Positions 5,667-58,556 of a stretch of DNA of 64,000 nucleotides are shown here, in pieces. The notes beneath the pieces are model-generated. The model saw only the letters and a list, made by a program, of their open reading frames with translations. It was not told where the DNA came from and did not search any database. A program made the position numbers and the translations under genes. The stretch's first letter is position 1. Every line of letters starts with the position of its first letter. Origin of the DNA: Vampirovibrio chlorellavorus (GTDB lineage Bacteria; Cyanobacteriota; Vampirovibrionia; Vampirovibrionales; Vampirovibrionaceae); the NCBI RefSeq assembly GCF_003149375.1, contig NZ_QFWH01000006.1, positions 62,001 through 126,000 of the forward strand, given 5' to 3'.

Positions 5667-6728
5667 GTGCAAATTCACTATCAAAGGCTCACCCTGCCCT
5701 ATGAGTTTACCTTTACCATTTCCCGGCAATCCAACGCCGAAAGCACCACGGTGATTGTGACGCTCCATGCCGACCACGAGGGGAAAACCTATCAGGGGCA
5801 GGGGGAAGCGGTTCCTTCCAGCTTCTACGGGGAAGATGCCGAGTCCGTGTGCCGCTTTTATGACCAGCTGAATGGCGACGGTGTTTTGAGCGATTTAAGC
5901 CCGTTTGAAATTCAAAAACTACAGGCCCGCTTTGAGAAAATTCCCGGGAATTTAGCCGCCAAATCGGCCATTGATCAGGCTTTTTACGATCTGCAAGGCA
6001 AAATTCTAAACCTGCCGGTGTGGAAGCTGTGGGGACTGGATGCGACCCAAGCTCCCAAAAGCTCCTACACCATTGGCATTGCCGATCTGGATACCGTCAA
6101 ACGGAAAACCGAAATCGCCCTGTCCCGGGGCTACGATGTGTTAAAGGTCAAGCTGGGTTCGCCTCAGGATGCCCCGCTGTTTGAGGCCATTCGGGCCCTG
6201 GCCCCCCATCCTCAGGTCACGTTGCGGGTGGATGCCAACGCCGCCTGGGAGGTCCAGGATTTTCTCAACATCGCCCCCCTGCTGAGTGAAAACCATGTGG
6301 AGTTTGTAGAAGAGCCCCTCAAGCTGACCTGCACCGATGCGGATTATGAGCGCCTGAAGGCGGAAAGCCCCTTGCCCCTGATGGCCGATGAAAGCTGCCA
6401 CACTCTGAAAGATATTCCCCGCTGCGCCCGGTATTTTCATGCCATTAACTTAAAGCACACCAAAACCGGGGGACTGACGGAGGCCCTGCGCATGATCCAT
6501 GCGGCCCGGGCCCACAATTTGCGCATTATGCTGGGCGGCTTCGGGGAAAGTTCCCTGTCGGTGACTGCCTTTGCCCAACTCAGCCCCTTGGTGGATTACT
6601 GCGATTTGGACGGGGCCCTGCTGATGGGCGAAGATCCCTATGAAGGGATTGTGTTTGAAGGCAGCCGGTTTTACCTGCCCCATCGCCCCGGGCTGGGCGT
6701 GATTCCCCGCATTCCGGTGACCGGCTGA
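5667..6728 (+). CDS. Enolase-superfamily epimerase (L-Ala-D/L-Glu epimerase or N-acyl-D-Glu racemase, DgcA-like)
   Basis: Muconate-lactonizing/mandelate-racemase type barrel enzyme of 353 residues. The catalytic pattern is complete: the KVK acid/base pair in VLKVKLG (about 160-166), metal ligands in RVDANAAW, VEEPL and MADES, and the opposite-face lysine in INLKHTKTGG. This arrangement is that of dipeptide epimerases and of DgcA, which racemises N-acetyl-D-glutamate. The start is GTG 5667, because the upstream ATG is followed at once by TAA; AAGGA lies 9 bases before it. It follows the DUF1611 gene and its stop overlaps the next start (TGATG), so the three genes form an operon. Confidence 0.88.
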   Translation: MQIHYQRLTLPYEFTFTISRQSNAESTTVIVTLHADHEGKTYQGQGEAVPSSFYGEDAESVCRFYDQLNGDGVLSDLSPFEIQKLQARFEKIPGNLAAKSAIDQAFYDLQGKILNLPVWKLWGLDATQAPKSSYTIGIADLDTVKRKTEIALSRGYDVLKVKLGSPQDAPLFEAIRALAPHPQVTLRVDANAAWEVQDFLNIAPLLSENHVEFVEEPLKLTCTDADYERLKAESPLPLMADESCHTLKDIPRCARYFHAINLKHTKTGGLTEALRMIHAARAHNLRIMLGGFGESSLSVTAFAQLSPLVDYCDLDGALLMGEDPYEGIVFEGSRFYLPHRPGLGVIPRIPVTG

Positions 6729-7054
6729 TGTGGCCGATTGTGTTGCTGACCCTGTCCAACGTGTTTATGACCTTTGCCTGGTACGGACACCTCAAGTTTC
6801 GTAGTTCGCCCCTGTGGATCGTCATTCTGGTGAGCTGGGGCATCGCCTTTTTTGAGTATTGCCTGCAAGTGCCCGCCAACCGCATGGGGTACGGGCAGTT
6901 CAGCGGGGCCCAGTTGAAAGTGATGCAGGAAGTGATCACGCTGGTGGTGTTCGCCCTGTTTTCGGTGTTTTACCTGAAGGAAGCCTTCAAGTGGAACTAC
7001 GTGGTGGGCTTTGTCCTGATTGTGCTGGCCGTGTTCGTGGTATTTCGGGAATAA
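6728..7054 (+). CDS. DUF486 family small membrane protein (DMT-like)
   Basis: Protein of 108 residues with four predicted membrane helices (about 2-20, 28-47, 66-86, 88-106). The FAWYGHLKF and AFFEYCLQVPANRMGYGQ segments are characteristic of the DUF486 group of drug/metabolite-transporter-like proteins. Its ATG overlaps the epimerase stop by one base, so translation is probably coupled. It could export or import a metabolite linked to the two upstream enzymes, but no substrate can be read from the sequence. Confidence 0.85.
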   Translation: MWPIVLLTLSNVFMTFAWYGHLKFRSSPLWIVILVSWGIAFFEYCLQVPANRMGYGQFSGAQLKVMQEVITLVVFALFSVFYLKEAFKWNYVVGFVLIVLAVFVVFRE

Positions 7055-7100
7055 TTCCGCAGTAAGCGGCAATAAGCATTGACAAAGCTGCCTGAGGGCA

Positions 7101-7128
7101 ATAAAAAAGCCCTTCCATCAGAAGGGCT
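7101..7128 (-). terminator. Intrinsic terminator of putative small RNA, copy 1
   Basis: Perfect 8-bp stem AGCCCTTC/GAAGGGCT with a 5-base loop, followed on the minus strand by six T residues. It sits directly 3' (minus strand) of repeat copy 1. It may also end the DUF486 operon on the plus strand, but that side has no T-run. Confidence 0.75.
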
Positions 7129-7164
7129 ACGAGTGGTAAAGCGTGGAAAGTACGTTTGAGCTAT
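7128..7164 (-). repeat. 37-bp repeat, copy 1 (body of a putative small RNA)
   Basis: Identical over 37 bases to 7306-7342. Similarity continues loosely on the upstream (minus-strand) side as TTAAACC. On the minus strand both copies run straight into a terminator hairpin whose stem sequence differs between copies while pairing is kept. No open frame explains the conservation. The most economical reading is two copies of a short terminated RNA; their promoters are not clear. Confidence 0.7.
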
Positions 7165-7270
7165 CGGTTTAATTAATGGTGATATCAACATCATAATGAG
7201 GACCCCGGGGATGCGAATATCACCCGGGCGGCTAGAGATACCACCCCACCTGGCTAGGGCGATTTTTTTA

Positions 7271-7306
7271 AAAAGAAAAACCCTTTACAGAAGACCTGCA
7301 AAGGGT
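7271..7306 (-). terminator. Intrinsic terminator of putative small RNA, copy 2
   Basis: Stem ACCCTTT/AAAGGGT (7280-7286 with 7300-7306), extended inside by CAG/CTG across one mismatch, followed on the minus strand by GGGTTTTTC. It directly follows repeat copy 2. Confidence 0.7.
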
Positions 7307-7342
7307 ACGAGTGGTAAAGCGTGGAAAGTACGTTTGAGCTAT
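7306..7342 (-). repeat. 37-bp repeat, copy 2 (body of a putative small RNA)
   Basis: Exact copy of 7128-7164, 178 bases away in the same orientation, again abutting a terminator hairpin on the minus strand. The flank upstream on the minus strand is very AT-rich (7343-7400). Confidence 0.7.
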
Positions 7343-7400
7343 AGGGTTTAAACTTGTTTCAATAAATATATATTATGTTTTTTTAACCATTTGTTATATT

Positions 7401-7505
7401 GCCCGTGTGTGTACATTTTTTGCTTCAGTCCGGTTAGCCACACGGGCAGTCCCGACTGCTCCGGGTAGTAACTGATCGGGAAGGGGCGTTCCTCGGGACG
7501 CCGGC
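7401..7505 (+). other. Three consecutive hairpins upstream of thrB, possible structured RNA
   Basis: GCCCGTGTG (7401-7409) pairs with CACACGGGC (7439-7447). It is followed by TCCCGA/TCGGGA and GGCGT/ACGCC hairpins before position 7505. A -10-like TATATT lies at 7395-7400. This could be a leader of thrB or a separate small RNA on either strand. I do not recognise a known riboswitch or T-box signature in it. The remaining gap to 7593 holds -35/-10-like sequences (TTGACC at 7541, TACACT at 7534) but no clear pair. Confidence 0.4.
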
Positions 7506-7593
7506 CCTATCCGCTTGTCCGGTGTGTTTGCGCTACACTGTTGACCTACAGTGTTGCAGTCTGCTAATCGTTGGCTTATAAGGATTCATCGGT

Positions 7594-8517
7594 ATGTTTA
7601 CGGTTCGCGTTCCCGCCACCATCGCCAATTTGGGGCCGGGCTTTGACAGTTTTGGCATGGCTGTTTCCCTGTACAATGGCTTCGAGTTTCAGCAAGCCCA
7701 GCGGGATGGGCTGACCTTTTCTCCGGATGGGGCCGCCGATGTGTCCGCCTTGCAGCGGGCCAGCGATTCGGCTGCTGGGGCGGTGGGTCAAAACCTGCTG
7801 TTTGTGGCCATGGATCGGCTGTTTGAAAAAGCGGGGCAATCCCGTCCCCCATTGCAGGTGCGGATTACTGCCGATATCCCGGTGGCCCGTGGCTTGGGGA
7901 GTAGTTCCACGGCGGTGGTGGCCGGACTCATCGCTGCCAATCACCTGTTGAATCAACGCTTTGAAATGCCCGAGCTGCTGGCTGTGGCCGTGTCCCTTGA
8001 AGGGCATCCCGATAACGTGGCCCCGGCCCTGCTGGGTGGGGTGGTACTGTATGATGAACGGCCCTATCCCCTGCCTTGGCCCTTGGAGTGGCGGGTGCTG
8101 ACCGTCAGCCCCGATTATGAGGTTCTCACCGAGGAAGCCCGTCGCATTTTACCGTCTTCCGTGGCCATGGCGGATGCCATTTTCAACTTGCGCAAGGCCA
8201 GTACGCTGACCTATGCCCTGTTGCGGGAAGACCCCGATGCCTTCCGGGCCAGTTTGCAAGACCGCTTGCACCAGCCCTATCGTCGGCAGTTAATCGCCGA
8301 GTACGATGCCATTGAGCGTTTGGTGATGGCCGATGGGGCCTTGGGGATGATTATCAGTGGTTCTGGGTCGACCATGGCCATTTTTTACCCCACCGTCATC
8401 CACGCGTTTCTGCTGGAGAAGCTGCAAGGGCTGATTCAGGCTGAAGGTTGGTCGATGACGATCAACGATTTGACCGTGGACACCGAAGGCGCCCAGTTGA
8501 TGGCTCCGGCTCTCTAG
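7594..8517 (+). CDS. thrB: Homoserine kinase
   Basis: GHMP-family kinase that phosphorylates homoserine in threonine synthesis. The N-terminus VRVPATIANLGPGFDSFGMA is the homoserine-kinase signature. The ATP-binding GHMP motif PVARGLGSSSTAVVAG is at about residues 94-109, and GMIISGSGSTMAIF near 250 matches the third GHMP motif. The 307-residue length is normal. ATG 7594 follows TAAGGA by nine bases. It converges on hom-thrC, so all three threonine-branch enzymes are clustered though not in one operon. Confidence 0.96.
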   Translation: MFTVRVPATIANLGPGFDSFGMAVSLYNGFEFQQAQRDGLTFSPDGAADVSALQRASDSAAGAVGQNLLFVAMDRLFEKAGQSRPPLQVRITADIPVARGLGSSSTAVVAGLIAANHLLNQRFEMPELLAVAVSLEGHPDNVAPALLGGVVLYDERPYPLPWPLEWRVLTVSPDYEVLTEEARRILPSSVAMADAIFNLRKASTLTYALLREDPDAFRASLQDRLHQPYRRQLIAEYDAIERLVMADGALGMIISGSGSTMAIFYPTVIHAFLLEKLQGLIQAEGWSMTINDLTVDTEGAQLMAPAL

Positions 8518-57350: not shown

Positions 57351-58556
57351 ATGGGTCAATTTCAGGATTTAACAACCAGGGTCAAACTGAACCCGGAAAC
57401 CTACTTCAAGTACGATGGCGGCGAGCATATTCTGCTGAAAAACATTCACTCCGACGATGGGTTGAGCATCAAGTACGACATCATGCTCATTTTGTATGAG
57501 TTAATCCACTGGAAGAGCGTGGGGGAGCTGATTGCCCCCTGGCCGCCGGATGATCAGGAGAAGATCAAGACCCATCTGGAAACCCTGTACGCCAGCCGCA
57601 TTGTCATCACCGATGAAGCGGAGGCCGCCGTGGCCTCGGAAAGCGGATTGTCCGAGACGCTGGGCAAAAACATTCACATCAACGTGGAAAATCACCATGT
57701 CATGCTGCGGGACTTTGTGCGCATGGCCGCTTATCGTCGGGCCATTGAACGGGCAGTGACCCCGGAGACGGTGGCCCTGGACCTGGGCTGTGGCTCGGGG
57801 GTGCTGTCCTTTTTTGCGGCCAAAGCGGGCGCTCGTAAAATTTTCGCCATTGAGCGCCGCTCTGACATTATTTATCTGGCCGAGCAACTGGCCAACGCCA
57901 ACGGGCTGGCCTCCCAAATCGAGTTTGTGGAAGGCGCATCCAGTCATATCAGCGAGGAGCGCTTGCAGCCCAAGCCCAACCTGCTGGTGGCCGAAATTCT
58001 GGCCAATGGCATTCTGGAAGAGAACGTGCTGGAGTTCACCATTGATGCCCGGCGTCGTTTTCTAGCGCCGGGGGCCCGCATGATTCCTTGCGGGCTGGAT
58101 ATTTACTTCTTTGGCTTTGATTGCGGCTTGCATCAAAGCCGCTGGGAGGAAGTAGAGGAGTTCAAGGACCTTTACGGCATCGACTTTACCCTGCTGGGGC
58201 ATGTGCTTTGCGGCAAGGCCACCATGCGTCTGGATCGCTTCAATACGGCCCTGCACAAGGCGGTGACTGATCCGGTACTGGTGCAGGCCATCGACTTTAT
58301 GACGCTTGAAAACCCGGCCTTTGTCAGCCGGTTTAAGCTGGTGGCCAAAGAGGACGGTCAGATCACCAGTTTCTGCGGTTATTTCAAAGCGCATCTGGAC
58401 GCGGAGACGGTGCTAACCAATTCTCCGTGGGCCCCGCCCACCCACTGGACGCATCTCATTTATACCCTGCCCGCTGCTCGTTCCGTGAAACGAGGCGATG
58501 TGCTTCAGTTGGAGCTGATTTACGACGGGGCTATGCGGCTGCAATTACTGGATTGA
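57351..58556 (+). CDS. PqqD-like domain fused to a protein-arginine-methyltransferase-like enzyme
   Basis: Protein of 401 residues. Residues 10-88 have a winged-helix pattern similar to PqqD/RRE domains, the peptide-binding modules of RiPP enzymes. From 114 the sequence is PRMT-like: HHVMLRDFVRMAAYRRAI, the AdoMet motif VALDLGCGSGVLSFFAAKAG (141-160), acidic post-I IFAIERR, the double-E loop E215-x8-E224 in LLVAEILANGILEE, and the THW loop at 364-366. The double-E and THW loops are what separate PRMTs from other methyltransferases. Start ATG 57351, with GAGAGG seven bases upstream. Operon with the GNAT gene. Confidence 0.8.
   Translation: MGQFQDLTTRVKLNPETYFKYDGGEHILLKNIHSDDGLSIKYDIMLILYELIHWKSVGELIAPWPPDDQEKIKTHLETLYASRIVITDEAEAAVASESGLSETLGKNIHINVENHHVMLRDFVRMAAYRRAIERAVTPETVALDLGCGSGVLSFFAAKAGARKIFAIERRSDIIYLAEQLANANGLASQIEFVEGASSHISEERLQPKPNLLVAEILANGILEENVLEFTIDARRRFLAPGARMIPCGLDIYFFGFDCGLHQSRWEEVEEFKDLYGIDFTLLGHVLCGKATMRLDRFNTALHKAVTDPVLVQAIDFMTLENPAFVSRFKLVAKEDGQITSFCGYFKAHLDAETVLTNSPWAPPTHWTHLIYTLPAARSVKRGDVLQLELIYDGAMRLQLLD

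Follow-up and report, generated by a model that had tools for sequence, protein, structure and literature searches.

Candidate sibling small RNAs of Vampirovibrio with a conserved core antisense to the predicted ribosome-binding site of a putatively secreted metalloprotease

Known sibling RNAs and the duplicated unit beside thrB

Small RNAs (sRNAs) of sibling design have been reviewed (PMC4211561), and several described systems bear closely on the locus reported here. The csRNAs of Streptococcus, which depend on CiaR, base-pair around the start of comC, and their effects are additive (PMC4507080, PMC4211561). OmrA/OmrB of the enterobacteria need Hfq, and the mRNA for the outer-membrane protease OmpT is among their targets (PMC4211561), while for LhrC1-5 of Listeria, Hfq was reported as not needed on the lapB target (PMC4132741).

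We analysed a 64,000-nt stretch of the Vampirovibrio chlorellavorus genome (contig NZ_QFWH01000006.1, positions 62,001 to 126,000; hereafter the window), in which two units lie on the minus strand between a DMT_6/DUF486 small membrane protein gene (6728-7054, plus strand), towards which they converge, and thrB (7594-8517, plus strand), which encodes a homoserine kinase of the GHMP kinase type and is divergent from them. As an initial sequence-only reading had described, an identical 37-nt block is present in both, at 7306-7342 in unit 1, nearest thrB, and at 7128-7164 in unit 2, with starts 178 bases apart, and each block runs directly into a terminator-like hairpin and T-run (7306-7280 and 7128-7108). 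Both copies are built alike, from a GGGNRATA element through a -10-like box, a leader and the block to the terminator, and judging from the -10-like boxes, unit 1 would start near 7363 and end near 7270, while unit 2 would span about 7183-7098. Searching the window with 32 nt of the block gives two matches at up to three mismatches, against a chance expectation of 0.00 (100 shuffles). The further claim that no frame covers the blocks is not strictly true, as a 51-aa frame (plus strand, 7196-7351) and a 65-aa frame (minus strand, 6997-7194) overlap them; both have the look of accidental frames. Folded alone, the block is mostly unpaired in most copies, and the stable element is the terminator.

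Comparison with the described systems reveals both shared and distinct features. Like the csRNAs, the units comprise several near-identical genes, some in tandem, with a common promoter signal (PMC4507080, PMC4211561) and pairing, here predicted, around an mRNA translation start (PMC4507080); unlike them, they belong to another phylum, apparently differ in sequence, carry the GGGNRATA element where the csRNAs have the CiaR regulator, and have one conserved target predicted. OmrA/B, too, are arranged in tandem and share a conserved pairing region, but in them it is the 5' and 3' ends that are conserved (PMC4211561), whereas the block here stands just before the terminator, and the Hfq that they need was not found here. 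LhrC is also multi-copy, with CU-rich pairing sites, but presents three redundant UCCC-type sites on a folded RNA (PMC4132741), in contrast to the one long core predicted here to form 14-15 contiguous pairs. No Rfam family was found at gathering score in the 64 kb, and a search of 541 bases against Rfam release 15 (E <=10) gave eight hits, all far below threshold, the best being a weak resemblance to SpF51 (E 0.94; 18.5 bits, threshold 50). As no Rfam family reached threshold, the units probably form a new, separate family of the sibling sRNA kind.

Promoter-like elements, terminators and conservation in the genus

The promoter-like element of unit 1 (7370-7404, minus strand) combines GGGCAATA at 7404-7397 with the -10-like TAATAT at 7375-7370, and that of unit 2 (7190-7225, minus strand) combines GGGTGATA at 7225-7218 with TATGAT at 7195-7190. 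Among the eight units found in the genus, the GGGNRATA element lies 21-22 nt ahead of the -10-like box in seven, and the whole motif lies 60-62 nt upstream of the block in seven of eight copies, as well as before a ninth, ectopic copy. Within the window this pattern matches at the two units and nowhere else, and a slightly different pattern has six matches in 464 kb, two of which are the units. The GGGNRATA element is a probable binding site of a regulator or sigma factor.

The predicted intrinsic terminators occupy 7270-7306 in unit 1 (stem 7306-7280, 12 pairs) and 7098-7128 in unit 2 (stem 7128-7108, nine pairs), both on the minus strand and both followed by a T-rich tail, and are the two best among five terminator-like sites in 6700-7700 (shuffle mean 1.4). 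Their sequences differ, and covariation between the two hairpins had been proposed. The proposal was weak from two copies, and is borne out with eight, as far as the terminator is concerned and for the terminator only, because stem pairing is kept over eight copies from four genomes: 88.3% of stem cells are paired, compared with 27-69% when partners are shifted by 1-3 columns, and both sides have changed in six cells (eight copies), where shuffling gives a mean of 2.3 and attains six in 3 of 500 trials.

The block adjoins thrB in all four genus genomes that hold this place, twice in the present genome (G000), twice in G004, three times in G003 and once in G001, with thrB the same neighbour in the latter three; in the fifth genus genome (G002, 76% complete), no unit was found and thrB is also absent. 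The block is preserved at 37/37 in both G004 copies and in G001, whereas the G003 units stand at 37/37, 35/37 and one diverged copy (G003_3). Averaged over seven of the eight copies, excluding G003_3, ungapped pairwise identity reaches 0.98 for the block but falls to 0.54 for the 25-nt leader, 0.44 for the following 37 nt, and 0.24 at -150 to -114. The features of sibling sRNAs are accordingly present at the sequence level, namely at least two near-identical intergenic genes per genome (G001, with one, apart), each with its own promoter-like element and intrinsic terminator, and complementarity to the translation start of a distant mRNA in five of five genus genomes.

Across 84,980 species genomes, the exact 19-nt core was found in five stretches, all from Vampirovibrio and including V. 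chlorellavorus NCIMB 11383. At up to two mismatches, it occurs in 15 of 382 genomes of the class, comprising the five genus genomes and ten others; the latter have one two-mismatch site each, most resembling coding sequence, and no hairpin with T-run is visible after any of the ten. DNA searches for homologues returned only chance-like matches outside the genus (E >= 0.0097), and the covariance model R1 reached a best E of 0.07 there. G003 also has two incomplete copies elsewhere: the ectopic one (L024; G003:C193, minus strand, core at 1736 of the reverse complement) retains the promoter-like element and has a different, longer 3' part, and the other (L025:1928-1964; G003:C146) carries the core at 19/19 immediately at a small gene's stop codon, lacking the promoter-like element and any clear promoter or terminator.

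The initial proposal, that the locus holds a small regulatory RNA in duplicate with conserved seed and intrinsic terminator, is therefore supported as the best reading of these comparative data, because the block and promoter-like element are conserved, the terminators are variable, and the units are standalone, intergenic and kept in the genus.

Complementarity to a metalloprotease start site

By its sequence, the core ACUUUCCACGCUUUA is antisense to the predicted ribosome-binding site of the mRNA for an M10 (matrixin-type) metalloprotease that is putatively secreted. Its 15-nt centre ACTTTCCACGCTTTA, the same at 7315-7329 in unit 1 and 7137-7151 in unit 2 (both minus strand), is the full complement of that site. 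The antisense site lies at about -28 to -6 from the protease start, in the same orientation and position in five of five genus genomes; it reads TGCTAAAGCGTGGAAAGT in G000, G002 and G004 or TGGCAAAGCGTGGAAAGT in G001 and G003, and ends 6-7 bases ahead of the ATG. In the present genome it falls outside the window, 3.6 kb ahead of its start (G000:C6:58362-58379, with the ATG at 58386). The protease frame spans 251-327 aa in the five genomes and carries HExxHxxGxxH; Pfam Peptidase_M10 (matrixin) was found in each of the four genomes scanned (G000, G004, G001, G003), and the N-terminus reads by eye like a signal peptide, consistent with putative secretion. If the box TTGTTT-17-AATAAT/CATAAT is the promoter, then the protease leader would be about 35 nt long.

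The block would form 15 (G000, G002, G004) or 14 (G001, G003) contiguous Watson-Crick pairs with the target, with more pairs on both sides that extend the helix to about 20 pairs with single mismatches. Over a 65-nt target region, the predicted duplex scores -32.6 to -35.9 kcal/mol, compared with a mean of -13.1 (sd 4.3, best -23.7) for 65 ORF starts in the window, and of 2000 shuffled cores, those reaching the observed energy number 0 in G000, 0 in G004, 0 in G001, 2 in G003 and 1 in G002. The reverse-complemented block also scores -28.6 in G000 and -24.7 in G002, but stays at -17 to -18.5 in G001, G003 and G004. Elsewhere in 464 kb of this genome, window included, no perfect antisense match to the block exceeds 12 nt. 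The target drifts among species with pairing kept and a single mismatch relocated (TGCTAAAG versus TGGCAAAG), while the core is constant in all intact copies, so that compensatory sRNA-target changes cannot be scored. Nor does energy alone amount to proof or single out the protease: with a lenient score that takes the best start per ORF (771 ORFs in 464 kb; mean -17.0, sd 4.7), five ORFs score -30 or below, and one of the 771, atpG (-33.2), attains the protease range. The atpG match was rejected as a target and looks like chance, because its site lies over the end of an apparent atpA frame and no such site was seen among matches of up to three mismatches in the other genus genomes. What singles out the protease is its conservation in five species, together with the length of the perfect match.

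On this evidence, we consider it likely that the units are sibling sRNA genes whose core pairs with the protease leader and ribosome-binding site, blocking translation initiation. Two minus-strand promoters would yield two sRNAs of about 85-95 nt, each with its own terminator, and the shared, mostly unstructured block would serve as the base-pairing region. The core would form its 14-15 contiguous pairs over the leader and ribosome-binding site of the protease mRNA, such that initiation is blocked and the mRNA probably destabilised; having two copies would raise the dose, and the differing leaders could bring in separate inputs. As the core is near-perfectly complementary to the ribosome-binding site, the sRNAs probably switch the protease off. 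We infer transcription, the start sites, secretion of the protease, pairing in vivo, the repressive sign and a role in predation. A search for Hfq (PF17209) found it in none of five genus genomes, and was positive in 5 of 14 named control genomes; the sRNAs probably act independently of Hfq, with which a core of 14-15 bp could dispense. The units do not resemble a cis-encoded antisense RNA, a possibility that was rejected since the target is not overlapped on the opposite strand and lies about 11 kb (G000) or 12 kb (G004) from the units, or on another contig (G001, G003).

Of the competing explanations, the one that survives best is that these are sibling sRNAs with another main target, reached through other mRNAs or through the 5' half of the block, and that the protease match is minor or a by-product. 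The 5' half, UAGCUCAA, is invariant in eight of eight copies and pairs weakly with the protease mRNA; within it the 8-nt TAGCTCAA is equally unchanged and is without a known partner, and target scoring covered 464 kb of the 2.79 Mb of the own genome. Moreover, the core has a 16-nt antisense match in G003 that overlaps the start of a fliE-like gene (GTG, by eye; L080:1750-1767, G003:C195); this match was not seen in other genus genomes. Against this, among the GCGTGGAAAG-N-ATG sites listed from the five genomes, that of the protease alone is present in all five, and it covers the ribosome-binding site at a constant distance each time. We therefore regard a main target elsewhere as unlikely. A further 19 candidate sites were rejected; those common to several species either fell inside reading frames (e.g. 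L161/L162 and L168/L169) or, at L163-L167 (G000, G002, G004), lay for the most part beyond any frame, with no evident start. The L163-L167 sequences resemble parts of the block. Starts of M10 paralogues were also tried as targets, with some start positions misassigned.

It is considerably less probable that the shared stretch is a DNA operator, at which one regulator binds the sRNA region and the protease leader alike. Such an operator might be suggested by the position of the stretch, just downstream of both inferred promoters, but the stretch is not palindromic, keeps one orientation to the terminator in eight of eight units and is reversed at the protease (five of five), reaches the terminator hairpin in every unit, and spans 37 nt in the units where the protease retains only about 22. 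Least credible is a mobile or repeat element devoid of regulatory function, which the additional G003 copies, two of them away from thrB, might suggest, but against which the own genome holds two units only, the same place is kept in four of four genomes, the copies have the block, the promoter-like element and the position of the terminator in common while their surroundings differ, and no match to the block was found in plasmid, phage or viral collections. The sequence-only reading had named a genome-wide mobile repeat as the outcome that would overturn it, and the core, at up to two mismatches, occurs just three times in this genome, once in each unit and once, antisense, at the protease.

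A second family and regulation in a predator

Elsewhere in the order, the covariance model scored weakly in a sister family (G012, E 0.07; G014, E 0.4). There, an 18-nt block, CCCTTTATCTCTTCGCTT, occurs at up to one mismatch in eight copies in G014, two in G010 and one in G012, and by eye stands shortly before a hairpin and T-run in 11 of 11 copies, within a conserved stretch ATCTCC..CTCTTC..CCTTTATCTCTTCGCTT that precedes the terminator (loci L145, L147, L183, L194, L196, L206 and L211-L214). Beyond CGCTTTAC, present in some copies, and a position ahead of the terminator, the two families have little in common; the sister-family set hints at a second multi-copy sRNA-like family, either diverged or independent. 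Its best match is in G014, where the reverse complement of the sister block, with 1-2 changes, lies at a purine-rich site before a 22-codon frame (L215:1107-1123; duplex with that leader, -33.0), a hint that L215 may be a target or sponge of this second family. G014 also encodes the nearest protease outside the genus, 47% identical and with a related leader. No sRNA matching that leader was found, its complement occurring only at the leader itself, and two three-mismatch hits to it (G010, G016) have no obvious hairpin around them; as a target of the sister-family sRNA, the G014 protease ranks fourth of 49 starts, which is not convincing.

Vampirovibrio is a predator that destroys Chlorella cultures (PMC4913114), and V. 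chlorellavorus encodes 106-108 proteases or peptidases, proteases being named among the proteins that may take part in ingesting the prey (Soo et al. 2015, PMC4451040). No regulator of the ingestion proteases appears in the portion of that account available to us, and titles and opening lines of abstracts yielded nothing relevant on small RNAs of Vampirovibrio or Melainabacteria, or on a Vampirovibrio transcriptome. The protease predicted as target here may be a predation enzyme. More broadly, and as a tentative suggestion that we would not favour on present evidence, the Vampirovibrionales, which are predatory cyanobacteria that do not photosynthesise, may rely on multi-copy sRNAs with long cores antisense to ribosome-binding sites, in two families that each track their own targets: that of Vampirovibrio, a type genus in which no Hfq was found, would be aimed at a secreted metalloprotease of predation, and the sister-family set would reach up to eight copies. 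The units beside thrB offer a concrete candidate riboregulator, with its predicted target, in Vampirovibrio, and with a core of 14-15 bp and no apparent Hfq chaperone they are also a naturally occurring example of what may be Hfq-independent sRNA control.
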